From a virus, in the IMG/VR virus record IMGVR_UViG_3300023222_000117, positions 1 through 28,288 of that record: a stretch of 28,288 nt of DNA; one strand, written 5' to 3'. The first letter of the stretch is position 1. The number at the start of each line of letters is the position of its first letter. The notes under the pieces were generated by a model. That model was not told the DNA's origin. It ran no database searches and saw only the letters and a list, made by a program, of their open reading frames with translations. A program made the translations under genes and the position numbers. Below, one piece after another: positions 5,891 through 27,731 of this stretch.

Positions 5891-6105
5891 GCGAAGAACA
5901 GGCCGAAAGAATACTTAAAGCCTTGGAACAGAAACCGCGTATCATAAATGCAACGACTATTCTTGGAACATTAATCATTACGCTTCTTATTTTGATTTTC
6001 GATTCACTGGGGAGCTTGAATGAAAAGATTCCAGTAATTCAAACAGATATACGGGAAAACAAAACAAGCATTGGTTTCTTAAAAGAATTCCACTCCACCC
6101 CGTAA
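5887..6105 (+). CDS. Single-pass membrane protein, XhlA/lysis-accessory-like
   Basis: 72 residues. A hydrophilic N-terminus (M-S-E-E-Q-A-E-R-I-L-K-A-L-E-Q) is followed by one membrane segment at about residues 22-43 (T-I-L-G-T-L-I-I-T-L-L-I-L-I-F), then a short amphipathic, possibly coiled tail. This layout and the position at the end of the tail cluster, just before a terminator, fit small holin-associated proteins such as XhlA or hemolysin-XhlA-like lysis accessories, although the membrane segment is nearer the N-terminus than in many of them. No endolysin gene is recognisable nearby, so the lysis role is inference. Confidence 0.6.
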   Translation: MSEEQAERILKALEQKPRIINATTILGTLIITLLILIFDSLGSLNEKIPVIQTDIRENKTSIGFLKEFHSTP

Positions 6106-6163
6106 GGGGTGCATCTTCTTCACTCCCCCGAACCTCCGGCTATTATGGTCGGGGGTTTTTTAT
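6096..6163 (+). terminator. Double hairpin and rho-independent terminator of the tail operon
   Basis: A small hairpin CACCCC/GGGGTG (6096-6111) contains the stop codon of the lysis-type gene. It is followed by a strong stem, CCCCCGA (6125-6131) with TCGGGGG (6149-6155), and a T run at 6156-6161. This ends the + strand tail operon before the minus-strand RNA cluster. Confidence 0.85.
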
Positions 6164-6197
6164 TTCCTTAATTTACATTGGTGAAGGTTTAAGCATA

Positions 6198-6271
6198 GAA
6201 AATATGAGATGGTTCGTCCAGAGCGCCTGGCTTTCCTTACATCATCGTATGATAGCCACTCCCATATTTCC
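6198..6271 (-). ncRNA. Structured RNA A, two-armed, shared closing stem
   Basis: An inverted repeat closes this 74-base segment: GAAAATATGAGA-TGG at 6198-6212 pairs with CCACTCCCATATTTCC at 6256-6271 with a G-U pair and a one-base bulge. Inside are two short perfect hairpins, CCAG/CTGG (6218-6230) and ATCAT/ATGAT (6241-6253), giving a three-way junction. The left arm is nearly identical to the left arm of the structured RNA at 11420. There is no protein-like frame. The minus strand is chosen because it lies downstream of the minus promoter at 6601-6629, but the fold also works on the other strand. Function unknown. Confidence 0.4.
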
Positions 6272-6282
6272 GTTTATCAAAA

Positions 6283-6389
6283 AATGAGAGTAGGCAGGCG
6301 CAATAGGCCGGGAGTCGAACCCAGGCGAACCAAGATTTTCATCTTGTCTACAGGACCGCACTGCAATCTATTAACCCACCACTCTCATT
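6283..6389 (-). ncRNA. tRNA-like RNA B (Phe-GAA-like, degenerate) in an outer stem
   Basis: Read on the minus strand, positions 6373-6301 form a tRNA-sized core. The T-arm CTGGG-TTCGACT-CCCGG is perfect (6324-6308). A D-arm GCAG/CTGT has a loop with GG. The acceptor pairs AATAG with CTATT. The anticodon position holds CAAGAT-GAAA-ATCTTG, readable as a 5-bp stem with a 6-base loop TGAAAA (Phe anticodon GAA, one base short) or as a 6-bp stem with a GNRA tetraloop. The core sits inside a further 9-bp perfect stem, AATGAGAGT (6283-6291) with ACTCTCATT (6381-6389), related to the closing stems of RNA A and the 11420 RNA. No CCA is encoded. It is probably not a normal translating tRNA. Confidence 0.5.
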
Positions 6390-6448
6390 ATTAAAAAATC
6401 AGAGCTGAAACCTATTTTGGATTTACTCAGTTGATTTTTCTTGCTTAG

Positions 6449-6586
6449 TGGAGTACGTCGGAATCGAACCGACATAACGGGACTAGCCCGTTTCCCAGGC
6501 AAACCAACTTGTAGCTATCAAGTTTTAACCTAGTCTCGGATTTAATCGCTAAATTAATCGAAAGGTCTCCATCAGACCAGCACCCC
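6449..6586 (-). ncRNA. Oversized tRNA-like RNA C
   Basis: On the minus strand a 7-bp acceptor-like stem joins GGGGTGC (6586-6580) to GTACTCC (6456-6450), followed by an A discriminator. A perfect T-arm GTCGG-TTCGATT-CCGAC lies at 6473-6457. There is a long variable-type hairpin AACGGG/CCCGTT (6492-6476) and a 6-bp arm with a 7-base loop, AACTTG-ATAGCTA-CAAGTT (6524-6506), with T before the central triplet AGC. Near the 5' end is an extra hairpin GGTC/GACC. At about 137 bases it is far longer than a class II tRNA (about 85-95), with some 40 unexplained bases between the first arm and the anticodon-like arm. It begins about 7 bases downstream of the predicted start of the minus promoter. Confidence 0.55.
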
Positions 6587-6600
6587 AATATTCTAAACTA

Positions 6601-6629
6601 AATATAACATATTATAATGATAAATGCAA
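6601..6629 (-). promoter_or_regulatory. Minus-strand promoter P1 for the RNA cluster
   Basis: On the minus strand, TTGCAT (6629-6624) is followed after 17 bases by TATATT (6606-6601), with an upstream TG giving an extended -10. The -10 region lies in a near-palindrome that is a variant of the 18-mer at the three other promoters. The predicted start (about 6594) is just before RNA C. It is divergent from P2. Confidence 0.65.
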
Positions 6630-6652
6630 GAAATAGTTTCTTCTTTTTCCCC

Positions 6653-6680
6653 TTGCTATTTCAATATAATATGTTATATT
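6653..6680 (+). promoter_or_regulatory. Promoter P2 with palindromic operator-like 18-mer
   Basis: TTGCTA (6653-6658), a 16-base spacer, then TATATT (6675-6680) with TG-T just before it. The bases also read TTG-N19-TATATTTG, the -33/-7 form known from Bacteroidota (TAnnTTTG). The perfect inverted repeat AATATAA-TATG-TTATATT (6663-6680) covers the -10. It drives the secreted FN3 gene at 6713. Confidence 0.7.
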
Positions 6681-6712
6681 TGATGATATTAATTTAATTT
6701 GAGGAGAAAAAG

Positions 6713-7129
6713 ATGAGATACATAATTGCAAGTATAATAATCCCATGGTTAGCCGCAACGGCTGGTTATGGGCAGAAAATTGACTTGAGTTGGGATAAAA
6801 ACAGCGAATCCGACTTAGGGGGGTATAGGATATATTTTAGTACAGACTCCTTGAGTCTCAATTCACTAGCTGATGTTGGCTGGGGTGAGACTGACCCAGA
6901 AGACGAGACTAGAGTTAAAGAGAGAGTCAACTGGAATTGGGAATCAAACATTCGTTATTTTGTAGGAGTGACAGCTTACGACCAGGCGGGTAATGAAAGC
7001 GGCATGTCTGTAATAATAGGCTTTGATTTCATTGATAGAGCGAGCCCTGATATAGTTGAAAATCTTGTAGTAATTAGAACCGACAAGGATGGCAATGTTA
7101 GGACTTATAGATTAGTTGAACAGGAGTGA
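6713..7129 (+). CDS. Secreted fibronectin type III domain protein
   Basis: 138 residues; ATG with GAGGAG seven bases upstream. Residues 1-20 are a signal peptide (I-I-A-S-I-I-I-P-W-L-A-A-T-A-G-Y-G-Q). Residues about 22-108 form one fibronectin III domain: I-D-L-S-W-D-K-N, then D-L-G-G-Y-R-I-Y-F-S and the closing F-V-G-V-T-A-Y-D-Q-A-G-N-E-S-G. The last 30 residues are charged. It has its own promoter (P2), separate from the tail operon. FN3 domains mediate binding to proteins or glycans; an exported one from its own transcription unit looks like a moron gene acting at the infected-cell surface. That role is inference. Confidence 0.75.
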   Translation: MRYIIASIIIPWLAATAGYGQKIDLSWDKNSESDLGGYRIYFSTDSLSLNSLADVGWGETDPEDETRVKERVNWNWESNIRYFVGVTAYDQAGNESGMSVIIGFDFIDRASPDIVENLVVIRTDKDGNVRTYRLVEQE

Positions 7130-7152
7130 AGAGATTAATCTGGTAATTGCAC

Positions 7153-7169
7153 CGTTCAAGCTCTGAACG
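7153..7169. promoter_or_regulatory. Inverted repeat upstream of the HTH gene
   Basis: CGTTCA-AGCTC-TGAACG is a perfect 6-bp inverted repeat, 24 bases before the ATG of the HTH/zinc protein gene. It could be an operator for autoregulation or an RNA hairpin near the ribosome site. No T run follows, so it is not a terminator. Confidence 0.4.
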
Positions 7170-7192
7170 CACCTTTTAAAGGATTATATGCT

Positions 7193-7588
7193 ATGAAAAC
7201 GATTGATATCACAGGTGATGATATTGCGGAGGTTAAAACCCTTCGTTGCGGGAATATCAGTTTTGGAAATATTGCAAAAGAAACCGGCATTTCTAAGGGT
7301 ACAGTATATAGGATAGTAAGCAATCGATTCCATAAAAAACCCCTCGTTCCAGCTTGCGCCATTCACGGACCCGAGTGTGAACACCGATGTAAACCCGACA
7401 AACCAAAGCGCAAACGTAAACCAGGCTGGAAAGTTTGGCTTGATATTAAATGTGATTGCGGTGGCTATTTATCTATTATTTGCTATTCAAACAAAACTGA
7501 GACTATAGAAATTGCAGAATATGTTTGTGATGATTGTGGGAAAGAAAAATCTTTTGAGCTTCAAACTAAATATAGAACCATAACTTAA
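7193..7588 (+). CDS. HTH and zinc-ribbon DNA-binding protein, candidate regulator
   Basis: 131 residues; ATG after AAAGGA. Residues about 22-46 (F-G-N-I-A-K-E-T-G-I-S-K-G-T-V-Y-R-I-V-S-N) are a clear helix-turn-helix of the resolvase/AsnC-like type. A basic linker K-P-K-R-K-R-K-P follows. Cysteines at about 55, 62 and 66 and at 87, 89, 97, 112 and 115 suggest one or two zinc sites. It sits in the P2 unit with a perfect inverted repeat just upstream. Inference: it may bind that repeat, or the 18-bp palindrome shared by the four promoters, and so set early versus late or lysogenic choice. A role as a small terminase-like HTH is less likely given the position. Confidence 0.65.
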   Translation: MKTIDITGDDIAEVKTLRCGNISFGNIAKETGISKGTVYRIVSNRFHKKPLVPACAIHGPECEHRCKPDKPKRKRKPGWKVWLDIKCDCGGYLSIICYSNKTETIEIAEYVCDDCGKEKSFELQTKYRTIT

Positions 7589-7617
7589 TATAAATACTAA
7601 CCCAAAAAGGAGATACC

Positions 7618-7722
7618 ATGAAAGCAGACCAAGAGCCGGGTGATGGGTCAGACCCGGCTGATGATTCACCAAAAGAAACCCCAACCACCTACCCAGGCTT
7701 GCCACCCTGGACTGACCGGTAA
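7618..7722 (+). CDS. 34-residue acidic, proline-rich peptide
   Basis: A short frame with a strong ribosome site (AAGGAG, six bases before ATG) and a terminator 5 bases after the stop. Seven Asp/Glu and eight Pro in 34 residues; the C-terminus reads Y-P-G-L-P-P-W-T-D-R. The coding DNA holds a perfect 8-bp inverted repeat, AGCCGGGT and ACCCGGCT, ten bases apart. No family is recognised. Small acidic phage peptides often bind host enzymes, but nothing here shows a target. Confidence 0.55.
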   Translation: MKADQEPGDGSDPADDSPKETPTTYPGLPPWTDR

Positions 7723-7726
7723 ACTT

Positions 7727-7763
7727 AAAACCGCCATTACTAAAAAGTTTTGGCGGTTTTTTT
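7727..7763 (+). terminator. Rho-independent terminator of the P2 unit
   Basis: AAAACCGCCA (7727-7736) pairs with TGGCGGTTTT (7751-7760), followed by further T residues. It ends the unit that begins at P2, 20 bases before promoter P3. Confidence 0.9.
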
Positions 7764-7782
7764 AATTAAAAAATAATAACCC

Positions 7783-7810
7783 TTGTTATTCAAATATAAT
7801 ATGTTATATT
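7783..7810 (+). promoter_or_regulatory. Promoter P3 with the same palindromic 18-mer
   Basis: TTGTTA (7783-7788), a 16-base spacer, TATATT (7805-7810) with an extended TG. AATATAATATGTTATATT at 7793-7810 is identical to P2 and is followed by TG, giving TATATTTG. It lies right after a terminator and before the long early operon. Confidence 0.7.
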
Positions 7811-7850
7811 TGATAGTGTAGGCAATAACTAACCAATCGAGGGAAACAAA

Positions 7851-8099
7851 ATGTGGTGGACAATGAAACATAACAACTCGGGGAACAAGCAACCATCAAC
7901 AACAATGTTCGATGCAGTTGGCGATGAGGTTATAACTAAATTTGGGCATTATAATGACCAGCAATTCACAGAATACAAGTGTGGTTTTATTGCTGGGAGA
8001 AAGGTTGACCCAATTATTCCGAGAACTGATTGGGGTCTGCTCGGATTTTACGACGCTAAGGCAATTAAACATTTTGAGAAAGGAGTTGCCCATGTGTAA
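7851..8099 (+). CDS. Hypothetical first gene of the early operon
   Basis: 82 residues; ATG with GAGGG seven bases upstream, about 35 bases after the predicted P3 start. It begins M-W-W-T-M-K-H-N-N-S and has a middle Y-K-C-G-F-I-A-G-R-K motif. No membrane segment and no known domain. As the first gene after an early-type promoter it may act against a host function, which is inference from position only. Its last 8 bases overlap the next gene. Confidence 0.6.
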   Translation: MWWTMKHNNSGNKQPSTTMFDAVGDEVITKFGHYNDQQFTEYKCGFIAGRKVDPIIPRTDWGLLGFYDAKAIKHFEKGVAHV

Positions 8100-8355
8100 C
8101 TGTCAATATGCAGCATGTCCGGAAGAACATCCGAAAAAGGATTGGGGGGAGATGGTCGAAGATAAACTTAGTGATTATGCGCTTGCTATTGAAACAGGCG
8201 CTTTCGATAAGGCTGATGTGTTTTACGAGCAATTAAGAAGTTTACAATACGATTACGCCGAAGAATTTAATCTTAAGATTGGCCAGAGACATTCTTTTGC
8301 TGACAGACTGATGGCTTTAGAAACATTACACTGTAGGAAAGAAGATGAATCTTAA
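8092..8355 (+). CDS. Hypothetical early protein with N-terminal Cys cluster
   Basis: 87 residues. The ATG at 8092 has AGGAG eight bases upstream; a longer frame reaches back to 7942, but that stretch is a shadow of the preceding gene. It starts M-C-N-C-Q-Y-A-A-C-P-E-E-H, a possible zinc or disulphide site. The rest is helical and acidic. No recognised family. Confidence 0.6.
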   Translation: MCNCQYAACPEEHPKKDWGEMVEDKLSDYALAIETGAFDKADVFYEQLRSLQYDYAEEFNLKIGQRHSFADRLMALETLHCRKEDES

Positions 8356-8404
8356 AGGACTAAATTGTCACGTCGAGCGAACAGATGAAAGGAGTGCGTA
8401 CTGA
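8345..8404 (+). CDS. Possible 19-residue peptide
   Basis: ATG-AAT-CTT to TGA, overlapping the previous gene by 11 bases and the next ATG by one base. It contains the AGGAG of the next gene and may serve only as a coupling leader. Weak support. Confidence 0.2.
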   Translation: MNLKGLNCHVERTDERSAY

Positions 8405-8775
8405 TGACGACGCCACATAAGCAGGCATGGCAAGCCACTTTTGTTTACAAAAATAGATATAATCAATTTGAAGGTTTATCAATGGCTTTTTGGCGAAGCT
8501 TAGGTGACGATGAGAAAGAATTGGTTAGAATATCATTAAAGGATATTGACAATTTACCGGATGAATCAGAATTAAAAAGGAGCAACAGCTTGGATAATAA
8601 GAATAACGATTACAGAATTACAAGTTTATATTTAAACACAGAAAATGACCCCCCGTACGATAAACTTCAGCGTGAGACGTTATCAGGTAACTTCTTTACT
8701 TGGGCACTGAGACGGGTTGATGAATTTTATGCATCATTAAAAGGCAAAGACAAGGATAAAATCTTAAAGGAGTAA
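8404..8775 (+). CDS. Hypothetical early protein
   Basis: 123 residues; ATG with AAAGGAG ten bases upstream. The sequence is charged and probably mixed alpha/beta: an N-terminal A-F-W-R-S-L-G-D-D-E-K-E-L segment and a C-terminal lysine-rich helix (S-L-K-G-K-D-K-D-K-I-L-K-E). No motif recognised. It is colinear with and tightly spaced to other early genes. Confidence 0.6.
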   Translation: MTTPHKQAWQATFVYKNRYNQFEGLSMAFWRSLGDDEKELVRISLKDIDNLPDESELKRSNSLDNKNNDYRITSLYLNTENDPPYDKLQRETLSGNFFTWALRRVDEFYASLKGKDKDKILKE

Positions 8776-8779
8776 AGAT

Positions 8780-8956
8780 ATGCCTAATAAATTGATTAAA
8801 CCGATAGATGCGTTAAGATTAAAGAACACCAGGCTTAATATCGTTAAAGATAATCTTGCTTTAAATCTACCTGAAAGCATAGCCAAGACGCAACACTTAC
8901 ATGAGTTAATTTTAGAGGCTCAAATAGAAGAACTTGAAAATGAACTGGCGCGGTAA
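8780..8956 (+). CDS. Small hypothetical helical protein
   Basis: 58 residues; ATG with AAAGGAG eight bases upstream and 4 bases after the previous stop. Mostly helix-forming residues, ending in an acidic amphipathic stretch (E-A-Q-I-E-E-L-E-N-E-L-A-R) that could be a short coiled coil. It is a clear coding frame by spacing and ribosome site. Function unknown. Confidence 0.6.
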   Translation: MPNKLIKPIDALRLKNTRLNIVKDNLALNLPESIAKTQHLHELILEAQIEELENELAR

Positions 8957-8967
8957 GGATTTTTTAT

Positions 8968-9189
8968 ATGAATAAGAAAAAAATTGCAACTTGGTTTAAT
9001 TCCTTATCAGAGAAAAATAAGCAAAAATTTGCAAAAGATTTTTTTAATAAGCAATACGGTGATTTGACCAACATGGAAGTATCTATAATCTATAATCAAA
9101 TGCACATCCCCAGGCAATGTCCAGAACATCCAGAGTCAGATTCAGAAATAAAAGAATCTTGGGAAAGGCATTGCAATGACATACAATAA
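8968..9189 (+). CDS. Small hypothetical protein
   Basis: 73 residues; ATG preceded by AAGGA eight bases upstream. A basic N-terminus (M-N-K-K-K-I-A-T-W-F-N-S-L) and an acidic C-terminus with two Cys (Q-C-P-E-H-P and H-C-N-D). It shares the C-P-E-H-P string with the protein at 8092 (C-P-E-E-H-P), perhaps by chance. Between this gene and the annealing-protein gene are about 100 bases with only a 15-codon frame at 9226 and no clear promoter. Confidence 0.55.
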   Translation: MNKKKIATWFNSLSEKNKQKFAKDFFNKQYGDLTNMEVSIIYNQMHIPRQCPEHPESDSEIKESWERHCNDIQ

Positions 9190-9292
9190 CATATCAATAC
9201 CCAATGTTCTTTAGAGAAAGTTTCTATGAGTAAGCCATGCATGGTATTCACCGAGATTGCAACTAATTTTTAAATTGAGGAGAAAAAGAGAA

Positions 9293-9979
9293 ATGAGTGA
9301 AATGTTAGAAATCCCGGTTAGGGTAGATAATCTAAAAATATGGGATGCCGTAAAAACTCCCCCACCTGAAGCAATGAAAAAGATTGCAGGCGGTAGGCTT
9401 TCCGGCATGACCGACATTAGCCCACAATGGCGCATTAAAATAATGACTGAGATGTTCGGTGCCGTTGGCTTTGGATGGACATACGAAATTGAAAAACAGT
9501 GGCTGGAAAAACTTGAAGGTGTGTCCGATGTGTGTGCATTCTCTAATATCAGATTGAAGTACAAGGCTGATGGTGAAAAAGGTGAATGGTCTGAATGGAT
9601 TCAAGGTACAGGTGGAAGTAAGATAGCTACTATGGAAAAAGGCGGTTTACACGTTTCCGATGAATGCTACAAAATGGCAACCACGGACGCTTTGAGCGTA
9701 GCAATGAAAGCTATCGGAGTTGGGGCAGATGTTTACTTGGGTCAGGTTGACCACAGCAGTAAGTACTCAGAGAAGAAAGGTAATCCTGTGCCGGCAAATA
9801 ATTTCATCAAACCAGAAACAGTGCAAAAGATAAAAAAAGAAATGAAAAAATCCGAAGACCCTGAATTGTTATGGGAGTCTGTGAGAGGTGATTTTAAAAA
9901 GGTTGATGACATCTCTGTTGAGAAAGTTAAGCAAATCAGCAACTCAATCGTTGAGTATTTGAAAAATGAAAACAGTTGA
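9293..9979 (+). CDS. Rad52/22-like single-strand annealing protein
   Basis: 228 residues; ATG at 9293 has GAGGAG about ten bases upstream, better than the TTG 36 bases earlier. Residues about 40-150 hold the Rad52/22-type core used by phage recombinases: I-S-P-Q-W-R-I-K-I-M-T-E-M-F-G, the F-G-W-T-Y strand, G-T-G-G-S-K near 106, and E-C-Y-K-M-A-T-T-D-A-L-S-V-A-M-K-A-I-G-V-G-A-D-V-Y. The C-terminus is a charged tail. These proteins anneal complementary single strands during recombination-dependent replication. The next gene is a YqaJ-type exonuclease overlapping by 14 bases, the usual exonuclease/annealase pairing. Confident on role, less on exact subfamily (Rad52, Sak or ERF). Confidence 0.75.
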   Translation: MSEMLEIPVRVDNLKIWDAVKTPPPEAMKKIAGGRLSGMTDISPQWRIKIMTEMFGAVGFGWTYEIEKQWLEKLEGVSDVCAFSNIRLKYKADGEKGEWSEWIQGTGGSKIATMEKGGLHVSDECYKMATTDALSVAMKAIGVGADVYLGQVDHSSKYSEKKGNPVPANNFIKPETVQKIKKEMKKSEDPELLWESVRGDFKKVDDISVEKVKQISNSIVEYLKNENS

Positions 9980-10595
9980 CGCGGAGGTTGGGTCGGACCT
10001 ATGGATATATTTACATATTGGCAAGGTTTCCGGCCATGGGTTTAAAAAGATTTTAGCTAAGGGCAACGGTAAAACTAGAGCCTCATATTTAAAGCAGCTT
10101 ATCACAGAAAGGCAAACTGGTATCTCTTCTATGCCTTGCCAAGAAGTTTTGCAGAACAATCGCGGAGCTTTATTAGAGCCGGAGTTTATATCAAGATATG
10201 AATCAGGGTGGGATATTGAAGAAACTGGCAAAGTTGTAATTATTAATGACGATATAGTTTTAAGTCCGGACATATTGAATTGTAATTTATTCGAAGAAAG
10301 ACGGAGCGGGGCAGAGATTAAGTGTTATGGAATCGATAAACATAATAAACTAGATGGCATGTTCCCAGGCGATAAGGCACAGGTTCAAGGCTACATCGGA
10401 TATATGGAGGCCGAGTTCTGGGATTATATCCTTGGTCATCCTGAAGCAGAAGAGGAATATAAATGCTTTCGGGTTCAACCCGACCAAGAATACATAGACA
10501 ACCTAAAAAATGAAGTCACCCGGTTTGTTGAAGAACTTAAGACCGGCGCCGACTTGGAAGGTAAGTTAAAAGAATCAATTGAGGAGGAGAAATGA
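9966..10595 (+). CDS. YqaJ/lambda-exo-like 5'-3' exonuclease
   Basis: 209 residues. The YqaJ nuclease signatures are in order: G-S-D-L-W near residue 9, R-G-A-L-L-E-P-E-F with Glu at about 71, S-P-D at about 100-102, A-E-I-K (Glu 117, Lys 119) and Q-V-Q-G-Y-I-G-Y-M near 139-147. These match the PD-(D/E)xK core and the Gln motif of lambda exonuclease relatives, which chew one strand of double-stranded ends for the partner annealase upstream. It overlaps that gene by 14 bases and the next by 4, so expression is coupled. Length fits the family (about 200-230). Confidence 0.85.
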   Translation: MKTVDAEVGSDLWIYLHIGKVSGHGFKKILAKGNGKTRASYLKQLITERQTGISSMPCQEVLQNNRGALLEPEFISRYESGWDIEETGKVVIINDDIVLSPDILNCNLFEERRSGAEIKCYGIDKHNKLDGMFPGDKAQVQGYIGYMEAEFWDYILGHPEAEEEYKCFRVQPDQEYIDNLKNEVTRFVEELKTGADLEGKLKESIEEEK

Positions 10596-10849
10596 AGGAA
10601 TTTTTACTTGATTTGACGGAAGTAAAAGAAGAGAATCGAGATAATTACCATACAGTTGCTTATGATATTGGAAAAATAAAATGCTGTCTAGGTAAACATG
10701 AATGTGATTTTGATTTAATTGAAGAAAGTATCGAGAAGAAATATTTAAATAAACTTCAAAATAAAAAGTCTGAATTCAATGAGCATAAACCCACAGGTAC
10801 GTCCCTGAATACAATTCCAGTTGGGGCTAAGATAACGAGAATAAAATGA
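10592..10849 (+). CDS. Small hypothetical protein in recombination module
   Basis: 85 residues; ATG overlaps the exonuclease stop (ATGA) and has GAGGAGGAG upstream. It is acidic with one Cys pair (K-C-C-L-G-K-H-E-C-D) that might bind zinc. The C-terminus P-T-G-T-S-L-N-T-I-P-V-G-A-K-I resembles a short beta tail. No family recognised. Coupling to the exonuclease hints at a recombination accessory. Confidence 0.55.
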   Translation: MKEFLLDLTEVKEENRDNYHTVAYDIGKIKCCLGKHECDFDLIEESIEKKYLNKLQNKKSEFNEHKPTGTSLNTIPVGAKITRIK

Positions 10850-10914
10850 AGCCAGGCGTACCAATACTAATAAAATCCGGCAAGATAACAAACTTCAATG
10901 AAGGAGAAAGATGA
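10846..10914 (+). CDS. Possible 22-residue coupled peptide
   Basis: ATG overlaps the previous stop (ATGA) and its own TGA overlaps the next ATG (ATGA). Its 3' end includes the AAGGAG for the next gene. Sequence M-K-P-G-V-P-I-L-I-K-S-G-K. It fills an otherwise empty gap with perfect overlaps at both ends, so it is probably translated, but it may only be a coupler. Confidence 0.35.
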   Translation: MKPGVPILIKSGKITNFNEGER

Positions 10915-11243
10915 CTGAAGAAATAAAAGATGTTAGTGATGCATTGCAGTTTCTGGCTAATACAGATGAAAGCGCAGCCCAAGCAATCGCTTACGCTGAG
11001 TATTTGAAGCGTTCTAAGGATACCAAAAAGGCTGTCGTAAAAATGATTTCAACGTTAAGTAGTGACGCAGCAAGAGAAACCGAGGCTTTAGCAAGTGAAG
11101 AATACAAAGAGCACTTGATTAAACTAAAGGATGCTGAATCTGATGCTTTGATTCTCAAAAACAAAAGGCATACTTTGGAGTTGAGAATTGAAATTTGGCG
11201 TTCAAAGAATGCAAATAGACGGCAAGCAGGGGGTAACATATGA
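10911..11243 (+). CDS. Helical early protein of recombination module
   Basis: 110 residues; ATG with AAGGAG upstream. Nearly all helix: residues about 25-105 are rich in Ala, Glu, Lys and Leu with heptad-like spacing (Y-A-E-Y-L-K-R-S-K-D-T-K-K-A-V, then L-I-K-L-K-D-A-E-S-D-A-L-I), so a coiled coil is likely. Proteins of this appearance are common next to annealase/exonuclease pairs in phages, without assigned function. It overlaps the following gene by 4 bases. Confidence 0.6.
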   Translation: MTEEIKDVSDALQFLANTDESAAQAIAYAEYLKRSKDTKKAVVKMISTLSSDAARETEALASEEYKEHLIKLKDAESDALILKNKRHTLELRIEIWRSKNANRRQAGGNI

Positions 11244-11413
11244 AGCTATTAGAGATAGAAGGCAATTCCAACGTAGTGAACTTTATCCGGGTTCACACAG
11301 ATGAACTGTATTCAGGATATAAGGCCTTTGTTAAGCTTTTCGGAAAGTATAACAATCCACATGAATTTATTCAAATAATCGCTGAGCTTGAATCTGGTTT
11401 TACTAAGAATTAG
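11240..11413 (+). CDS. Small hypothetical protein
   Basis: 57 residues; ATG overlaps the previous stop and has a GGGGG run six bases upstream. It reads M-K-L-L-E-I-E-G-N-S-N-V-V-N-F-I-R-V and ends in an amphipathic helix (F-I-Q-I-I-A-E-L-E-S-G-F). A well-formed frame in the operon, and the last before the structured RNA at 11420. Similar short proteins in other phages display as KTSC-like folds (I-R-x-V-x-Y-x-x-Y); the order here is similar but not decisive. Confidence 0.55.
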   Translation: MKLLEIEGNSNVVNFIRVHTDELYSGYKAFVKLFGKYNNPHEFIQIIAELESGFTKN

Positions 11414-11419
11414 TTCATT

Positions 11420-11543
11420 GAAAATATGAGAGTGGCGGAAACGCAGTTAAACGGGTGAAAAGGCATTGCCCGGTACGGTTGAAAAATACCGGTAACACTC
11501 AAAAGTATTAGGCCGACGATACGAATTGTACTCTCATATTTTC
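11420..11543 (+). ncRNA. Structured RNA E1, 14-bp closing stem, multibranched
   Basis: A perfect 14-bp inverted repeat, GAAAATATGAGAGT (11420-11433) and ACTCTCATATTTTC (11530-11543), encloses 96 bases with several helices: GCG-GAAA-CGC with a GNRA tetraloop (11435-11444); GGGTG/CACTC (11453-11457 with 11496-11500) enclosing GGC/GCC and CGGTA/TACCG (11471-11475 with 11487-11491); and GTAT/ATAC (11505-11508 with 11519-11522). The closing stem also reads as a tRNA acceptor (GAGAGTG with TACTCTC), but no T-arm is present. No protein frame crosses it. It lies inside the early operon, so it is probably processed from or acts within that transcript. Its left arm matches RNA A. Confidence 0.55.
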
Positions 11544-11565
11544 TTAATTTAAAAGGAGAAACATA

Positions 11566-11601
11566 ATGTCAAATTCAAAAGGAGTTTTATTGTGGACATA
11601 A
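11566..11601 (+). CDS. Possible 11-codon leader peptide
   Basis: ATG with AAAAGGAG seven bases upstream; the frame M-S-N-S-K-G-V-L-L-W-T ends at 11601 and contains a second AAAAGGAG that serves the GTG start of the next gene. The overlap suggests translational coupling between leader and gene. Confidence 0.3.
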   Translation: MSNSKGVLLWT

Positions 11602-11792
11602 CTCTTGTATTTAGAAGCGGTAGGATGTTTGAAAAAACAGAAAGGTTTACAATAAAAAACTGGCAATTGCCAATACCTAGAAGTGGTGATTATGTAGAAA
11701 GCGATAAAAAGAGTGTTGGAGGAGAGGTAAGTCGGGTTGAATTTGATATTGATAAACAAGAAATTTTTGTCATTCTCATTCATAGCGGATGA
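11592..11792 (+). CDS. Small hypothetical beta protein, GTG start
   Basis: 66 residues from GTG at 11592, with AAAAGGAG (11577-11584) seven bases upstream. Sequence pattern M-D-I-T-L-V-F-R-S-G-R, then W-Q-L-P-I-P-R-S-G-D-Y-V and E-F-D-I-D-K-Q-E-I-F-V-I-L looks like a small beta barrel (SH3/KOW-like). No known family. Followed by 73 bases without a gene. Confidence 0.55.
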   Translation: MDITLVFRSGRMFEKTERFTIKNWQLPIPRSGDYVESDKKSVGGEVSRVEFDIDKQEIFVILIHSG

Positions 11793-11865
11793 TTTACTGA
11801 CCCCGTATTCCAAAATGGAAAGGACTCCCAGACCCCGATAAAATTAAAATAGAGGATAAAACATC

Positions 11866-12090
11866 ATGATAAAAGTAACTGAAGTAAATTTAAGCGAAAT
11901 TACGTTACATTTAAAATTTTCTGAATCATATGAATGGTTCAAAGACTTTCTGGATGAAACGAAATTTGAAACCGGCCGCAACATAACTAAACTACGCTCT
12001 ATGATTCAGTCTATGGTTGAATCTATAGATGATGCACAAGAATATATTGACAAGCCGATTACAGAACGAATAAAGGATAAAACATCATGA
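11866..12090 (+). CDS. Small hypothetical protein upstream of replication gene
   Basis: 74 residues; ATG with AGAGGA upstream. Mixed beta start (V-T-E-V-N-L-S-E-I-T-L-H-L-K-F) and helical C-terminus. The DNA around its start (AGGATAAAACATCATGA) is repeated almost exactly at the start of the next gene (12072-12089), and the last residues are encoded by that repeat. It overlaps the next gene by 4 bases. Function unknown. Confidence 0.55.
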   Translation: MIKVTEVNLSEITLHLKFSESYEWFKDFLDETKFETGRNITKLRSMIQSMVESIDDAQEYIDKPITERIKDKTS

Positions 12091-13292
12091 GTAACGTAAG
12101 AATACATAAAGAAAGAGAATTCTCTACAATTGACAATCAACCTATAAATGATATAAATTTATCAATGGAAGGTATGGCTTTGTTAGTTTATCTTTTAAGC
12201 AAACCTAACAATTGGAAAGCCAGGAAGAGTCAAATTTGCAAACGCTTCCCTAAGAACACAAAGCATAAAATTGAAATATCTTTCAAGCAATTGGTCGAAA
12301 ATGGATATGCTATTCTTGAAAAAATAAAAGGTGAAAAAGGAAAATTTGATGGAAGCGAGTATGTAATATTTGAAAGAAAGGAGTTAAGCGATAAGTACCG
12401 CACCTCAAAATCACGGAGACCGGATATATTGGAGGTCGGAGAAATTGGAGAGTCCGAAATATCCGAGGCTCCAATAAACCTGGCCTATAGTAATACTAAA
12501 GAAGATAATAAAACTAAAAGAGATAATAAAATAGAAGAAGATAAAGAACCTTGTGCGAAAAAATCGCACGACCTTTATTTAATAGACATTAATTATTGCC
12601 CAGGACACAACGAGGAACCCCGATGGAGAGAATTCACAAAAGAAGATTATATGTTGAAATGCAATATCGATGAATCAGAATGGCTCAAGATGCAAAAAGA
12701 TAAAGACATAAAAATTTTGGATGATGGAGATATTACTATTAATCCGAATGGCCTTATAGATAGGTTCAACAAAACAGACGAAAGGCAACCAACCAAGTTT
12801 GAAACAGCTATTAAAGAAAGTATTGAGCGTAACAACCCCCCCGTCAGCGCAGAATCAGAGTATTGCAAATGTATTAAACCTGCTATTGCTACTTTTGGCG
12901 GAGATATATCTAGTCCAGATGTTTGTTTGAATTGTGATAAATCTATGAAACCAGAGTTGAAGAAAGGCGGGGGGGATTATACCCCAGAGTTTGAGGAATG
13001 GTGGAGCCATTGGATAGATATGAAACGGAATATAGCAAAGCCGAAATGTTTTGAGAAGTGGAAAAAGATAATAGAGCCGACGCATTTAAAAACCTGGGTA
13101 CACCCTGAACTTTTGATAGATTTAATTATAGACCAAAAACGTTCGTACGTAGAAAGTGGATTCATCCCCCTACCAATGACCTATCTAAACCAAGGCAGAT
13201 GGGAAGACACCAAGAAGGCGATATTGTTTAATAAAAAGAAAGCAAACGGCACAACTGAAGTCGAAAGGAAACCCTACGTATGGAAAGACTAG
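12087..13292 (+). CDS. Replication initiator/helicase-loader-like protein (DnaT/O-type)
   Basis: 401 residues; ATG overlapping the previous stop. Residues 1-97 form a winged-helix domain (L-S-M-E-G-M-A-L-L-V-Y-L-L-S, W-K-A-R-K-S-Q-I-C-K, L-V-E-N-G-Y-A) as in phage replisome organisers. A Lys/Asp/Glu-rich linker follows. A four-Cys cluster (C-K-C ... C-L-N-C, about residues 259-285) probably binds zinc. The C-terminus (F-E-E-W-W-S-H-W, A-K-P-K-C-F-E-K-W, F-I-P-L-P-M-T-Y-L-N-Q-G-R-W-E-D) matches the DnaT/lambda-O-related domain that recruits helicase or its loader. It likely binds the phage origin; no clear iteron array is visible inside the gene. Confidence 0.75.
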   Translation: MSNVRIHKEREFSTIDNQPINDINLSMEGMALLVYLLSKPNNWKARKSQICKRFPKNTKHKIEISFKQLVENGYAILEKIKGEKGKFDGSEYVIFERKELSDKYRTSKSRRPDILEVGEIGESEISEAPINLAYSNTKEDNKTKRDNKIEEDKEPCAKKSHDLYLIDINYCPGHNEEPRWREFTKEDYMLKCNIDESEWLKMQKDKDIKILDDGDITINPNGLIDRFNKTDERQPTKFETAIKESIERNNPPVSAESEYCKCIKPAIATFGGDISSPDVCLNCDKSMKPELKKGGGDYTPEFEEWWSHWIDMKRNIAKPKCFEKWKKIIEPTHLKTWVHPELLIDLIIDQKRSYVESGFIPLPMTYLNQGRWEDTKKAILFNKKKANGTTEVERKPYVWKD

Positions 13293-13912
13293 AAGACTTG
13301 GTAAATCACATTGACAACCTATTTCTACACAAGAATTTCGTGAGCCCGGAAGAAAGGAACGCCAAACTGCAACGATTCAACGATATGTTCAAACGATACA
13401 CGCCGGAGCTATTAATTAAATCCTTTAGAGATTGGAGCGAAAATTTCAGTTCTAAGTTAGGTTCTGGGAAGGATTTCTTTGATGACTTGTCAAGATTTAA
13501 AGCTATATGTGATAGGCCTGAAAGCGAAAAATGGAAACCGGTAGGAGATGGAGAATACAGGCGGCTGCCAACCAGAGAGTTTCATGATGCAATTGCGGCC
13601 ATAAATGTAAAACCTCACAAAAACCCGGAAAATAAGAACTGGAAAACGAATGAGCAATGTCTGGTTGAGTGGTACGATAAAACCTATATCAAACCTGCTA
13701 TTAAACAACACATTGAAAAGAGACTCGAGCTCGAACGCATTGACATGCCAGCAGATGAACTCAGAGCGGAAGGAAACAAAAGATATTGCTATTACTGTGA
13801 TGGATATGTAGTTAGACCGAATATAAGCACTATTGTAGTTGAATGGGCTCTATATTACGAGTGTCAAAAGTGCGATGTTAAGTTTGAAATTCAGGAAGAT
13901 TTACCATTTTAA
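13280..13912 (+). CDS. Replication-module protein with C-terminal zinc ribbon
   Basis: 210 residues; ATG overlaps the replication protein gene by 13 bases, with AAAGG ten bases upstream. Residues 1-100 are helical (L-E-D-L-V-N-H-I-D-N-L-F, R-Y-T-P-E-L-L-I-K-S-F-R-D-W), the pattern seen in proteins that follow O-like initiators in phages and may act as helicase loaders. Residues about 170-205 contain C-Y-Y-C ... C-Q-K-C, a zinc ribbon. No Walker motif, so it is not a DnaC-type ATPase. Loader function is inference from position. Confidence 0.65.
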   Translation: MERLEDLVNHIDNLFLHKNFVSPEERNAKLQRFNDMFKRYTPELLIKSFRDWSENFSSKLGSGKDFFDDLSRFKAICDRPESEKWKPVGDGEYRRLPTREFHDAIAAINVKPHKNPENKNWKTNEQCLVEWYDKTYIKPAIKQHIEKRLELERIDMPADELRAEGNKRYCYYCDGYVVRPNISTIVVEWALYYECQKCDVKFEIQEDLPF

Positions 13913-13924
13913 AAAGGAGATAAA

Positions 13925-14155
13925 ATGAGAAAGATTAAATACCAAGCATACGATAAAGAATCTGGGCAGATGCACCAAATAGGTCAAATAGATATAGACT
14001 TAGAGCAAACATTGGGACCGGGTGAAGTTGTAAAGATTTTACACCATGTCGAAATGGCAAAAGTTAACTTCGACACGCCACATGATGAAAAATATAACGC
14101 AGCTGGTAATCCGTGCTTGCGTCATTTTGAAACTTTAAAACAGGAGATAAGATGA
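13925..14155 (+). CDS. Small hypothetical protein
   Basis: 76 residues; ATG with AAGGAG nine bases upstream. Pattern I-K-Y-Q-A-Y-D-K-E-S-G-Q-M-H-Q-I-G-Q-I-D-I-D resembles the YopX-type start (a protein describing a modified molecule), but the YopX core is not complete. A 4-base overlap links it to the next gene. Function unknown. Confidence 0.55.
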   Translation: MRKIKYQAYDKESGQMHQIGQIDIDLEQTLGPGEVVKILHHVEMAKVNFDTPHDEKYNAAGNPCLRHFETLKQEIR

Positions 14156-14319
14156 AATACGATTTCAAAGTAGGGGATTATGTCTTAGTTGACAATAAAG
14201 AAAAAACTGAATTTACAATAAGGGGATTTATCCAGATTGGTGAACACAGATTTGCCCAGGGTTTTTATGGTCCCGTTCTATTAAGAAGCCTTTCATTAAA
14301 AGAGGAGATTAAAGAATGA
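14152..14319 (+). CDS. Small SH3/KOW-like protein
   Basis: 55 residues. ATG overlaps the preceding stop and has AGGAG upstream; the TGA overlaps the next ATG. It begins M-K-Y-D-F-K-V-G-D-Y-V-L-V-D-N, the barrel-opening pattern seen in small KOW or SH3-like phage proteins, and similar to the paralogues at 15953 and 16377 (F-K-V-G-E-x-V). No catalytic motif. Confidence 0.6.
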   Translation: MKYDFKVGDYVLVDNKEKTEFTIRGFIQIGEHRFAQGFYGPVLLRSLSLKEEIKE

Positions 14320-14528
14320 AATTACAAAGATATGATTTAATATCAACAGATTGCTATTATGGTCAAAGATGTGGTGCTTATATTGGTGAGGTTGAAGATG
14401 GTGAATGCGTTGACGCTGAAGATGCTTATAACCTAGAATATGAAAATAAGGAACTAGAAAAAGAGAATGAAGAATTAAAAGAAACAATCAAACTTCTTGA
14501 AAGGTATGCGTTAACAGTAAATGAGTAA
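14316..14528 (+). CDS. Small protein with C-terminal coiled coil
   Basis: 70 residues; ATG with GAGGAG nine bases upstream. The N-terminal half carries two Cys and reads D-C-Y-Y-G-Q-R-C-G-A-Y-I-G-E-V-E-D-G. The C-terminal half (E-Y-E-N-K-E-L-E-K-E-N-E-E-L-K-E) is a strong coiled coil. It overlaps the nuclease gene by 8 bases. Such small coiled-coil proteins are common in phage early regions; function unknown. Confidence 0.6.
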   Translation: MKLQRYDLISTDCYYGQRCGAYIGEVEDGECVDAEDAYNLEYENKELEKENEELKETIKLLERYALTVNE

Positions 14529-14961
14529 TAAATCAGCATCATCAGACCCCAGGCTTAAGTTTGCAAAGCCAGGCACCTCAGTCTACACTGACACGTATAA
14601 GCAAGAGAAAACATTCCAAAAGCAGTGCGAGAACCTATTGATGTGGAACGGTTTTGTAAAGCCTGGAGATATATTAGATGGCAGATACGGGGTAGGTGGT
14701 AATCCACGCGGAGTATATTTCCATATCCCAAACGAAGTGTTCAGCCGGCAGAAAAATAACGTCAGTCGTAATTTAAAGAACTTACCTGACTTAATTGTCT
14801 TGAATGCTGACGGCCGGTACTGGTCGCCTGAATTGAAGTCTGTAAATGGAAAACTATCAACCGGACAAAAAGCAGTTAGGAAGATAATACATACGCCTGA
14901 CTTTAAATCACTAGAGCATTTTAATTTAGAATTGATAAGGTGGATAAATAATGAGAGATAA
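14521..14961 (+). CDS. VRR-NUC-type PD-(D/E)xK nuclease
   Basis: 146 residues. The VRR-NUC core is visible: L-P-D-L-I-V-L with Asp 90, then P-E-L-K-S with Glu 104 and Lys 106, followed by G-K-L-S-T-G-Q, the usual Gln-containing helix start. An N-terminal E-x-x-F-Q-K-Q-C-E-N-L-L helix also fits the family. Phage VRR-NUC proteins are structure-selective nucleases acting on branched DNA and often replace RusA-type resolvases near the end of early operons. The active residues are all present. Overlaps the next gene by 11 bases. Confidence 0.8.
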   Translation: MSNKSASSDPRLKFAKPGTSVYTDTYKQEKTFQKQCENLLMWNGFVKPGDILDGRYGVGGNPRGVYFHIPNEVFSRQKNNVSRNLKNLPDLIVLNADGRYWSPELKSVNGKLSTGQKAVRKIIHTPDFKSLEHFNLELIRWINNER

Positions 14962-15113
14962 AAAATGTCTGTGGGTTTATGATGAGGAAGATAACGCATG
15001 GGCAACAGCTTGCAGAGAATATTTTGAATTCACCGACGGTCAAATAGAAGAGAACAAATTTCATATATTGCCATCAGTGCGGAAGAAAGATTAAAATAGG
15101 ACCCCGTGTTTAA
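14951..15113 (+). pseudogene. Zinc-ribbon small protein, apparent single-base frameshift
   Basis: The ATG frame encodes 47 residues (14951-15094) and begins M-R-D-K-K-C-L-W-V-Y-D-E-E-D-N-A-W-A-T-A-C, with E-F-T-D-G later: the usual start of small phage zinc-ribbon proteins, which end in a C-x-x-C-G motif. In this frame the end reads I-L-P-S-V-R-K-K-D. One base later (+1 shift near 15059-15061, in AAA-TTT-C) the frame reads F-I-Y-C-H-Q-C-G-R-K-I-K-I and stops at 15113, restoring the missing CHQC-G knuckle. Either one T is extra (mutation or sequencing error) or ribosomes shift there. Confidence 0.55.
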
Positions 15114-15122
15114 CTGAAAATT

Positions 15123-15152
15123 AAAACCCCCCGCTAGAGAACGGAGGGTTTT
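15123..15152 (-). terminator. Terminator between convergent transcripts
   Basis: AAAACCCCCCG (15123-15133) pairs with CGGAGGGTTTT (15142-15152), with one C-A mismatch. Read on the minus strand it is followed by TTTTAATTTT, a good tail for the holin-like gene. Read on the + strand the tail is short (TTTT then GAGG), so it may also end the early operon weakly. Confidence 0.7.
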
Positions 15153-15166
15153 GAGGAAAAGAGAAT

Positions 15167-15463
15167 TTATACTTTGTTTAATTTAACGACATTCTTACCG
15201 AGCAACTTAGTTGTTTTGAACAACCCAGCAGCAACGCCACCCGCAAGGATACCGACAAATCCTGCAAGCATCCAACCAAGTTCTTGCAAGTATGTGAACT
15301 CGCTGGCAAAGATGGAGATTATAAAAGTCAATACTATTGCCGAAGTTCCTTTGATGTTGCCTAGGGCGTTTCTAAGTACCTTTGTAGCGGCGATAATCGT
15401 CGCAATCATTGCAAGTAAATCCTGGCTGAATATGATGTTAAAAAAATCTGGTATTTCGTCCAT
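15167..15463 (-). CDS. Holin-like membrane protein (minus strand)
   Basis: 98 residues; on the minus strand the ATG has AGAGG about nine bases upstream. Two or three hydrophobic segments (about residues 14-32, 40-60 and 64-83) with a short acidic N-terminus and a lysine-rich tail (K-T-T-K-L-L-G-K-N-V-V-K-L). This size and layout fit class I/II phage holins. It is the only coding gene on the minus strand in the window, with its own terminator downstream. An opposing + frame over the same bases lacks a ribosome site and is Pro/Ser-rich noise. It could instead be a different membrane protein; no endolysin lies beside it. Confidence 0.65.
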   Translation of the reverse strand: MDEIPDFFNIIFSQDLLAMIATIIAATKVLRNALGNIKGTSAIVLTFIISIFASEFTYLQELGWMLAGFVGILAGGVAAGLFKTTKLLGKNVVKLNKV

Positions 15464-15540
15464 TGATGAAACCTCTTAATTAATGATGACACATAATAAA
15501 TAAAATGCTGCATAATTCCAAAAGAAAAATGATATAGTCC

Positions 15541-15568
15541 TTGCAGGTTAAATATAATATGTTATATT
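15541..15568 (+). promoter_or_regulatory. Promoter P4 with the palindromic 18-mer
   Basis: TTGCAG (15541-15546), a 16-base spacer, TATATT (15563-15568) with TG in front. AATATAATATGTTATATT (15551-15568) is identical to P2 and P3, but the following bases are GT, so the -7 box is TATATTGT. It precedes the packaging-region operon. Confidence 0.65.
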
Positions 15569-15577
15569 GTAGGTGTG

Positions 15578-15841
15578 ATGAGAGAAGAAACTAAAAAAGA
15601 GAAAAATGAAATGAAATTAAACCAATCAACTTTAGATAGAGCGATTAATATAGCGGAATTAGAAAATGTTGAGTTAAGTGAAGATAATTCAATTGAGTAT
15701 TTTCAAAAAGCTCTTATTGAAGAAATTAACCTTGCTGCGGATATTGTAGAAGATTGTCGGCATGAATTCGGTAAAGGGTATTGCATACAACAAAAAATGA
15801 AGAATAGGGTTTATGGATGGCAACAGGAAGATATATTGTAA
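15578..15841 (+). CDS. Hypothetical protein, first gene after P4
   Basis: 87 residues from the ATG at 15578; another in-frame ATG lies at 15611. The first ATG is only about 10 bases after the -10 of P4, so it would be nearly leaderless, and the second start (76 residues, M-K-L-N-Q-S-T-L-D-R-A) may be the used one. Acidic and helical, two Cys, C-terminus V-Y-G-W-Q-Q-E-D-I-L. The W-Q-Q-E-D motif and its DNA (ATGGCAACAGGAAGAT) recur in the zinc protein at 16148. Function unknown. Confidence 0.55.
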   Translation: MREETKKEKNEMKLNQSTLDRAINIAELENVELSEDNSIEYFQKALIEEINLAADIVEDCRHEFGKGYCIQQKMKNRVYGWQQEDIL

Positions 15842-15855
15842 AAGAGGAGAAAGTA

Positions 15856-15960
15856 ATGATTTTTAGAATTAAGAGAGAAAGTTCTTCAAGGGGAGAGAAG
15901 CATTTCGAAGAATTTAAACATCAAGGTGAATGGTTTTGTAAGCCATATATTAATGTGTAG
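15856..15960 (+). CDS. 34-residue hypothetical protein
   Basis: ATG with AGAGGAGAAAG just upstream, a strong ribosome site. The frame reads M-I-F-R-I-K-R-E-S-S-S-R-G-E-K-H-F-E-E-F and ends W-F-C-K-P-Y-I-N-V. It overlaps the next ATG by 8 bases. Too short for family assignment; the ribosome site and spacing support translation. Confidence 0.5.
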   Translation: MIFRIKRESSSRGEKHFEEFKHQGEWFCKPYINV

Positions 15961-16141
15961 AGGACAACAAAACAAATTCAAAGTCGGGGAGTCGGTTAAA
16001 GTAATCCGTAACGGAGATATAGCAACCATTCTTAATGTTAGCGGAAATCATTGCTGGCTAGATTGGGGTAAAGCTAATAATATGACACATTCAAGAAAAT
16101 CAATACTTCACTATACAAAATTAGTACTAATCAAACAATGA
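15953..16141 (+). CDS. SH3/KOW-like small protein, paralogue 1
   Basis: 62 residues from ATG at 15953; an upstream ATG at 15926 extends it by 9 residues, but the shorter form matches the paralogue at 16377. Pattern Q-N-K-F-K-V-G-E-S-V-K-V-I, a barrel core, and L-H-Y-T-K-L-V-L-I-K-Q at the end. The DNA at both ends is nearly identical to that of 16377-16541, showing recent duplication. No membrane segment or catalytic motif. Confidence 0.6.
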   Translation: MCRGQQNKFKVGESVKVIRNGDIATILNVSGNHCWLDWGKANNMTHSRKSILHYTKLVLIKQ

Positions 16142-16147
16142 AAAGCA

Positions 16148-16384
16148 ATGAAAAGCAAAGAAAAAGTAGATTCTGAACAAATGTGTTGCTGTAAATGCGG
16201 ACACATTGCCAGTTTATGCGAACCGTATGAAACAGAATATCCTGACGGCGAAAACGGGGACGAATTCCCCATTTGCCCTCATTGCGGAGAATGGAACACG
16301 GGCGGCTGTGGTAGTTATGCTCGTATGGAAGTATGGCAACAGGAAGATTTTGAGACAATTCTTGAGTTGAACAAGAATGAATAG
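16148..16384 (+). CDS. Zinc-binding small protein
   Basis: 78 residues. Cysteine knuckles C-C-C-K-C-G-H and C-P-H-C-G-E bracket an acidic loop, a two-knuckle zinc ribbon. The tail (W-Q-Q-E-D-F-E-T-I-L-E) shares sequence with the protein at 15578. The start region is a tandem repeat of ATGAAAAGCA (16138 and 16148); the second copy opens the long frame. Possible nucleic-acid binding. Overlaps the next gene by 8 bases. Confidence 0.6.
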   Translation: MKSKEKVDSEQMCCCKCGHIASLCEPYETEYPDGENGDEFPICPHCGEWNTGGCGSYARMEVWQQEDFETILELNKNE

Positions 16385-16541
16385 AACACAAAACAAATTC
16401 AAAGTCGGGGAGCGGGTTGAGATAATTGCACATTATTATTTTTATGGTGTTACTGATAAGATTAAACAGATTGATGGTAATGAATGTTATGTTAAGGGGC
16501 GTTGGTTTCACTATACAGAATTAGTACTAAGCAAACAATGA
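16377..16541 (+). CDS. SH3/KOW-like small protein, paralogue 2
   Basis: 54 residues: M-N-R-T-Q-N-K-F-K-V-G-E-R-V-E-I-I-A to H-Y-T-E-L-V-L-S-K-Q. Clear paralogue of 15953-16141, with the same first 12 and last 10 residues and a different middle (a Tyr-rich loop, then G-N-E-C-Y-V-K-G-R-W). The frame is intact. The ribosome site is inside the preceding gene and weak. Confidence 0.6.
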   Translation: MNRTQNKFKVGERVEIIAHYYFYGVTDKIKQIDGNECYVKGRWFHYTELVLSKQ

Positions 16542-16542
16542 A

Positions 16543-16722
16543 ATGTACACTAAGAGATATATCTGCCCCAGTTGCCACAGAAGGTGGTATATTTACGATG
16601 ATGGCAGATTCAACAAATTCAAGAGACACATTAAATACTGTCCCCGTCGGGCAGGAATACGAGCCGACCGGTCTAGGGATTCGAAATCCTTGCGGGCGTG
16701 GGGCAGATATTTATTGCGGTAA
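16543..16722 (+). CDS. C2HC-type zinc-finger small protein
   Basis: 59 residues from ATG at 16543. The pattern Y-I-C-P-S-C-H-R-R-W-Y-I ... F-K-R-H-I-K-Y-C gives a C-x2-C-x(18)-H-x3-C zinc finger. A long basic C-terminus (R-A-G-I-R-A-D-R-S-R-D-S-K-S-L-R) follows. It starts directly after the second SH3-like paralogue, as the zinc protein at 16148 follows the first, so the region is a duplicated pair of SH3-like plus zinc protein. Two other frames here (one at 16502) lack a motif. No ribosome site of its own; translational coupling is likely. Confidence 0.55.
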   Translation: MYTKRYICPSCHRRWYIYDDGRFNKFKRHIKYCPRRAGIRADRSRDSKSLRAWGRYLLR

Positions 16723-16743
16723 TGAGATAAGTGAAGTAAGCAC

Positions 16744-17016
16744 ATGACCAAGAAAGAAAAAGAAATAGTAGCTAAAGCACTAGACCAAGCAAGGAAAGCA
16801 GTCAAGAGGTTTAATTCACCTGTTCATATGGTTACTGGTGGAGCCATGTGTGACGTACTGAAAGATATTGATTCACTTCTGTCTGTGTTATTCGTAGAGT
16901 CCGAAAAGAAGGCAGACAAATCTGAGTCCATACTCTTGAAAAAGACTACCCAAAAGTCGCCTGAGTGGTGTGGTCGAAGCAATCGTTTAGCAGGATATAT
17001 ATATTTATTGCGATGA
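16744..17016 (+). CDS. Small hypothetical protein
   Basis: 90 residues; ATG preceded by GAAGTAAGCAC, a moderate site. Helical N-terminus (K-K-E-K-E-I-V-A-K-A-L-D-Q-A-R-K-A-V-K-R), a middle V-T-G-G-A-M-C-D-V-L-K-D-I-D, and a basic end. No recognised domain. It stops immediately before the structured RNA at 17017. Confidence 0.5.
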   Translation: MTKKEKEIVAKALDQARKAVKRFNSPVHMVTGGAMCDVLKDIDSLLSVLFVESEKKADKSESILLKKTTQKSPEWCGRSNRLAGYIYLLR

Positions 17017-17112: not shown

Positions 17113-17135
17113 AATTTTTAATTGAGGAGAAAAGA

Positions 17136-19362: not shown

Positions 19363-19374
19363 GGAGGAGAAAGA

Positions 19375-24857: not shown

Positions 24858-24928
24858 TTGAACAATAATAGGTATTAGATGTAAGAAGATGTAACAAACA
24901 GACAATCGAACATGTAACACATTTCGCG

Positions 24929-24963: not shown

Positions 24964-24973
24964 ATTTTGGAGA

Positions 24974-26366: not shown

Positions 26367-26368
26367 TT

Positions 26369-26749: not shown

Positions 26750-26762
26750 GGAGAATTAAAGA

Positions 26763-27722: not shown

Positions 27723-27731
27723 TTTCTTTCT

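Follow-up and report, generated by a model that had tools for sequence, protein, structure and literature searches.

A near-palindromic 18-mer at the predicted promoters of four phage transcription units is a probable operator

The IMG/VR virus record IMGVR_UViG_3300023222_000117, analysed here over its whole length of 28,288 bases (the window), carries one 18-mer, AATATAATATGTTATATT, over the predicted −10 regions of four separate transcription units. This raises the question of whether the word is only a promoter or also the site of a regulator common to these units. The initial annotation had reported identical copies at 6663, 7793 and 15551 and a variant on the minus strand at 6601 to 6618. 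Both statements held: there are three exact plus-strand copies, and the minus-strand word, ATTATAATATGTTATATT, has one mismatch, located in its upstream arm. At up to three mismatches the 18-mer had eight strand-matches compared with a mean of 0.15 in shuffles, and none of 100 shuffles reached eight. It is the only 18-mer with at least three exact plus-strand copies, and the longest word with at least three exact copies in 200 shuffles never exceeded 13 letters. A position weight matrix scan of the whole window, a step suggested in the initial annotation, scored the four sites at 26.8 to 27.8 bits and no other place above 8.5 bits, the opposite-strand readings of the same sites excepted. Because of this gap, the occurrence of the 18-mer in the window is all or nothing. 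The word is present at the promoters of four unit starts and absent elsewhere in the window, which is the pattern looked for in an operator of the SPBRE/MrpR type. Each site stands at the start of its own unit (RNA, FN3/HTH, early or packaging), as had been proposed, and the plus-strand units are parted by hairpins.

All four sites have the anatomy of an extended −10 promoter. TGTTATATT is present at each of them, with TGn directly before a −10 hexamer that matches the consensus at five of six positions. The −35 hexamers match TTGACA at only three or four of six positions. The distance from TTG to TATATT is 16 bp at each identical site and 17 bp at the minus site, where the −35 is displaced by one base relative to the 18-mer; thus, the TG element claimed earlier was found throughout, but the spacing of 16 bp, described as constant, applied to three of the four sites. 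Because TGTTATATT occurs at all four sites, they were read as extended −10 promoters. This reading is well supported by their placement at unit starts between hairpin terminators, by the open reading frames (ORFs) with Shine-Dalgarno (SD) sequences behind copies 1 and 2, and by unrelated phages in which 16 letters of the word (TATAATATGTTATATT) follow TTGAC at a distance suited to a promoter. Judged from the sequence, the shared promoters appear real and well defined, and each 18-mer would serve as an extended −10 promoter for the host housekeeping RNA polymerase.

Two other kinds of transcription start were considered. A phage-specified change of polymerase specificity, in which a sigma factor, a sigma appropriator or a phage RNA polymerase reads the 18-mer and switches all units together, would agree with the poor −35 hexamers and with the strict identity of the whole block, which resembles phage-specific promoters. 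However, TTG at 16 to 17 bp together with TGn suits the polymerase of the host, the factor would have to be on hand for the early operon before it could itself be made, and no sigma factor or RNA polymerase was found among the ORFs scanned, part of the genome lying outside the contig. Such a change is very unlikely. A bidirectional promoter is more improbable still. The near-symmetry of the word puts a TATATT (or TATAAT) −10 on both strands, mirrored −10 hexamers with −35-like matches of three or four of six positions occur at all four sites, and the mirrored promoter at 15551 would face the minus-strand membrane-protein gene at 15463-15167. On the other hand, the predicted starts would be about 31 bp apart (an estimate from −10 geometry), outside the 7 to 25 bp that defines such promoters in PMC10268837. 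In addition, the mirrored −10s have TAT in place of TGn, and no gene could be called in the mirrored direction at 7793. The Bacteroidetes-type promoter consensus, TAnnTTTG, was also tried and rejected: it can be read as TATATTTG at 6663 and 7793 but does not match 15551 or the minus site, and the SD sites ahead of the genes are strong.

The upstream arm of the word, AATATAA, may point beyond a promoter. Across the four sites 27 of its 28 letters are identical. Pairwise agreement was one to four of seven in the letters just upstream of the arm and four to ten of 25 in the letters downstream of the 18-mer; the arm is more conserved than the −35 hexamers or the flanks. The sole substitution among the four sites falls in this arm, which sigma does not read. 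At the minus site the 18-mer is kept while the TTG shifts by one base, and the word is therefore conserved apart from the −35.

The arm was then compared with other promoters of the same kind. TTGACA-N11-13-TATGTTATATT was searched in 196 Clostridia genomes, 27 of which had any such site (32 sites in total). AATATAA was found at none of the 32, the best match being five of seven letters, in a baseline that is imperfect in that a perfect −35 was demanded and the host of the phage may belong to another group. The best dyad in the 18-bp windows of these sites had six of nine pairs, compared with 8, 8, 8 and 7 at the window sites. The loci collected in this study held 23 distinct promoters of the same kind, of which 15 were forced by the search patterns; AATATAA was present in none of the eight unforced promoters, two of which matched it at six of seven letters. 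Judged from the 32 Clostridia sites, the AATATAA arm is dispensable in promoters that share this TATGTTATATT.

The conservation of the upstream arm, which sigma does not require, makes it plausible that one factor reads the whole 18-mer. The best reading of the four sites is that a second constraint acts on the arm, most simply as the operator for one factor, and we give this reading a probability of about 0.5; some operator function of the 18-mer is probable. Each 18-mer would then also be the putative site of one dimeric DNA-binding factor covering the −10 and the spacer. Binding of this factor would block RNA polymerase at the RNA, FN3/HTH, early and packaging/head units together, the factor presumably acting as a repressor rather than an activator. 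The centres of the back-to-back pair at 6601 and 6663 are 62 bp apart, or 5.9 helical turns at 10.5 bp per turn, which is near six.

Several observations weigh against an operator, the first being the modest symmetry of the word. The three identical copies have eight of nine dyad pairs (7-bp arms and a central A-T) and the variant has seven; in copy 2 the arms lengthen to 10 bp (TCAAATATAA/TTATATTTGA), which they do not in the other copies. Windows of equal dyad quality numbered six in the record, three of them the 18-mer copies, versus 3.6 in shuffles. When the spacer from TTG to TATGTTATATT was shuffled, an equal dyad arose in 2.0%, 4.0% and 1.7% of cases for the three copies and in 16.4% for the variant. 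Since shuffles of both the window and the spacer give comparable dyads, the symmetry is mildly significant and, in AT-rich promoter DNA, weak evidence when taken alone. The 7-bp arms on which the 18-mer had been named an operator candidate are therefore present, and the upstream one is conserved, but the palindrome alone is only mildly unusual. In the second place, most of the word recurs as a promoter in unrelated phages: CTTG-N9/10-TATAATATGTTATATT was found in 26 viral stretches, which sort by eye into about ten groups. The TTGAC form is present in 25 of the 26, and none of these stretches encodes a relative of a window protein. Sixteen of the 18 letters (TATAATATGTTATATT) thus also appear to form a promoter word of unrelated phages. 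Furthermore, control by one site would not separate the early and the packaging units in time; no integrase or repressor family was found among the scanned proteins of a contig that lacks the stretch from the head gene to the left end; and the only candidate regulator so far is the predicted HTH protein encoded at 7193. The imperfect Clostridia baseline counts here as well.

The modest dyad and the use of the 16-mer by unrelated phages favour a simpler possibility, namely that one strong extended −10 promoter serves every unit as a short copied cassette selected for strength, with no dedicated regulator. The downstream half of the 18-mer is just TATGn and a −10 with five of six matches, the copies at 6663 and 7793 agree at 91% over 35 nt, as a duplication would leave them, and an AT-rich spacer can raise promoter activity (PMC2613000). 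A plain shared promoter is a serious possibility, though a tentative one. Against it stands the absence of the arm from the Clostridia sites and the unforced promoters described above. In addition, copies 1 and 3 and the minus site have no flanks in common, and an unselected cassette should have decayed in the arm too. The unrelated phages with TATAATATGTTATATT have a near-consensus −35, and the arm can vary within a single phage (ATTATAA and ATTCTAG in L070). The window has the opposite pattern, a constant arm and a poor −35, and this contrast is the main reason for favouring a second reader of the word. As an observation in its own right, promoters of the TATGNTATATT kind occur two or three times in the unrelated phages L017 (4498, minus strand) and L077 (6363, plus strand), and one of them precedes a small protein that by eye resembles a ribbon-helix-helix regulator.

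The full word was also sought elsewhere. The exact 18-mer occurs in 24 stretches of viral_contigs, with one copy each, and in a tblastn search of the window proteins none of the 24 shared a protein with the window; matches were obtained only with L005 and L006. Whole records were searched for 22 of the 24 (all but L022 and L027) and for L005 and L006. None of these 22 records, which range from 4,076 to 215,686 bases, had more than two sites at up to one mismatch, compared with four in the 28,288 bases of the window. TTG-N7-18-mer was found in only four stretches of genome_contigs, once in each, of which the Anaerosphaera one alone looked promoter-like by eye; in this exact form, therefore, the word does not mark a widespread host regulon. 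When the literature was searched for the 18-mer, its complement and the 14-base cores of both, the only return was an unrelated human RNA paper. Relatives of the phage were sought in viral_contigs with the portal, replication initiator, TerL, annealing/exonuclease-family protein, HTH protein and tail-side protein 4755, and the portal was also searched against genome_contigs. The sole close relative found, L005 (TerL 91%, portal 86%), covers 17.8-24.6 kb of the window and none of the four sites. L006 and L031-L064 are distant, with one or few proteins in common, and none bear on the sites.

The factor itself might be the product of the gene at 7193, a protein encoded in the stretch that the contig probably lacks, or a protein of the host. 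The 7193 product is the only scanned protein with a DNA-binding domain of regulator kind, the replication initiator and the small terminase also being likely DNA binders. What speaks for it is its helix-turn-helix (HTH) domain and its place in a unit that bears the site, which would fit autoregulation but no more. Searches found no relatives of it. Its AlphaFold model was unusable for structure-based identification (mean predicted local distance difference test score 49.6), and a sequence search of the PDB gave one match, LuxS at E 0.2, which was taken as chance. It is unlikely that this protein is of a new kind (a resolvase-type HTH with a Cys-rich, zinc-ribbon-like tail and its own gene under the site) and binds the 18-mer as a dimer, switching the whole programme, including the tRNA-like RNA unit, in a lineage without known close relatives here. 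The initial annotation had proposed that one regulator or a phage-specified specificity change switches all the units; a single factor is plausible, given the conserved arm, and the scanned ORFs gave no support to the second alternative.

The features around the sites are listed in Table 1. The G+C content of the record is 40%, and the 12 bases at its left end are not repeated inside it. The window ends just past the major head protein gene and starts in genes taken as tail; judging by this gene order, the contig probably lacks the part of the genome that leads from 28288 back to 1.

Table 1. Sites, transcription units and flanking hairpins in the window
Feature	Position	Strand	Remarks
18-mer copy 1	6663..6680	+	Spacer and −10 (TGTTATATT); −35-like TTGCTA 6653-6658; heads FN3/HTH unit
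18-mer copy 2	7793..7810	+	10-bp arms; −35-like TTGTTA 7783-7788; heads early operon
18-mer copy 3	15551..15568	+	−35-like TTGCAG 15541-15546; heads packaging/head operon
18-mer variant	6601..6618	-	TTGCAT 17 bp before TATATT; heads structured-RNA unit
Two hairpins, the second followed by a T-run	6096..6158	+	Terminator of incoming plus-strand operon
Structured RNAs under minus-strand promoter	6190..6590	-	First one tRNA-like; no ARAGORN or Rfam match
First gene under copy 1	6713..7129	+	138 aa, signal-peptide-like start; FN3 is the label of the initial annotation only
7193 product	7193..7588	+	131 aa, N-terminal resolvase-type HTH (Pfam HTH_7, E 1.8e-6), Cys-rich C-terminus; candidate regulator
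Terminator closing FN3/HTH unit	7727..7765	+	Fold z −5.5; just upstream of copy 2
Early operon under copy 2	7851..15094	+	Annealing protein/exonuclease-family protein (9257), exonuclease (9966), replication initiation (12087)
Hairpin	15123..15152		End of early operon (+) and of minus-strand membrane-protein gene; T-rich tail on minus strand
Packaging/head operon under copy 3	15575..28288	+	TerS (18031), TerL (20339), portal (22428), protease (25146), scaffold (26369), major head protein (26763)

The first gene product under copy 1 had no Pfam or PHROG match, and a weak match (E 0.002) was found in L063. The tRNA-like RNA of the minus-strand unit (6590-6448, about 137 nt) has a 7-bp acceptor-like stem, GGGGTGC/GTACTCC, a T-arm (GTCGG-TTCGATT-CCGAC), a D-like arm and extra arms (fold z −4.0); ARAGORN and Rfam gave no match for it. 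Structured RNAs at 6390-6275 on the minus strand, with tRNA-like arms inside, and at 11420-11543 on the plus strand carry GAGAGT/ACTCTC in the long stem that encloses them (z −4.4 and −4.2). A third, at 6270-6190 on the minus strand, has a similar outer stem and a weak fold (z −0.55). In a gene gap at 17018-17112 on the plus strand, a very stable structured RNA (z −6.2) has a near-perfect outer stem with CCCCTGCTGTAGCTTGGTAC and inner arms. The minus-strand gene between the early and packaging operons encodes a membrane-protein-like product of 98 aa, holin-like by eye, with its own SD; no PHROG or Pfam match was found for it. Duplicated stretches lie in small genes where the packaging operon begins (16107-16143/16507-16543, 95% alike; 15967-16005/16388-16426, 87% alike).

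Under a single factor that reads every site, the four units (early, packaging, accessory and RNA) would rise and fall together. Such joint control would depart from the usual early-to-late cascade, and timing would have to come by other means such as antitermination or RNA. The 18-mer offers a ready bait for finding the regulator of this uncultivated phage group, and even as a mere shared promoter it would be a reliable promoter marker for the group.

The design is a familiar one, since dispersed phage operators at promoters are already known. The conserved inverted repeats of phiC31 and the c1 operators of P1 are dispersed repressor operators that overlap promoters, and no sequence relation to them is claimed. 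As promoters, the four sites resemble the Gram-positive-type extended −10 (TRTGn) class described in PMC2613000, with TATGTTATATT and a −35-like TTG at 16 to 17 bp; unlike ordinary promoters with this −10, they bear the AATATAA arm. The operators and stoperators of mycobacteriophage immunity repressors (PMC9283540) are asymmetric, bound by a monomer, numerous and dispersed over the genome. The putative repressor sites described here are likewise dispersed over a phage genome, but all four are at promoters and none is inside an operon. The closest comparison is SPBRE of the Bacillus subtilis prophage SPbeta, which PMC10516654 describes as a 15-bp motif repeated at promoters, found in silico and later shown to be bound by the master repressor MrpR/YopR. 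SPBRE belongs to a prophage with an identified repressor, whereas the four near-palindromic sites of the window lie over the −10 itself and have only a candidate repressor. Membership in the SPBRE/MrpR type is not claimed. By analogy, however, the 18-mer may work like dispersed phage operators of this type, with which it shares the feature of one short word repeated at the promoters of several units of one phage.

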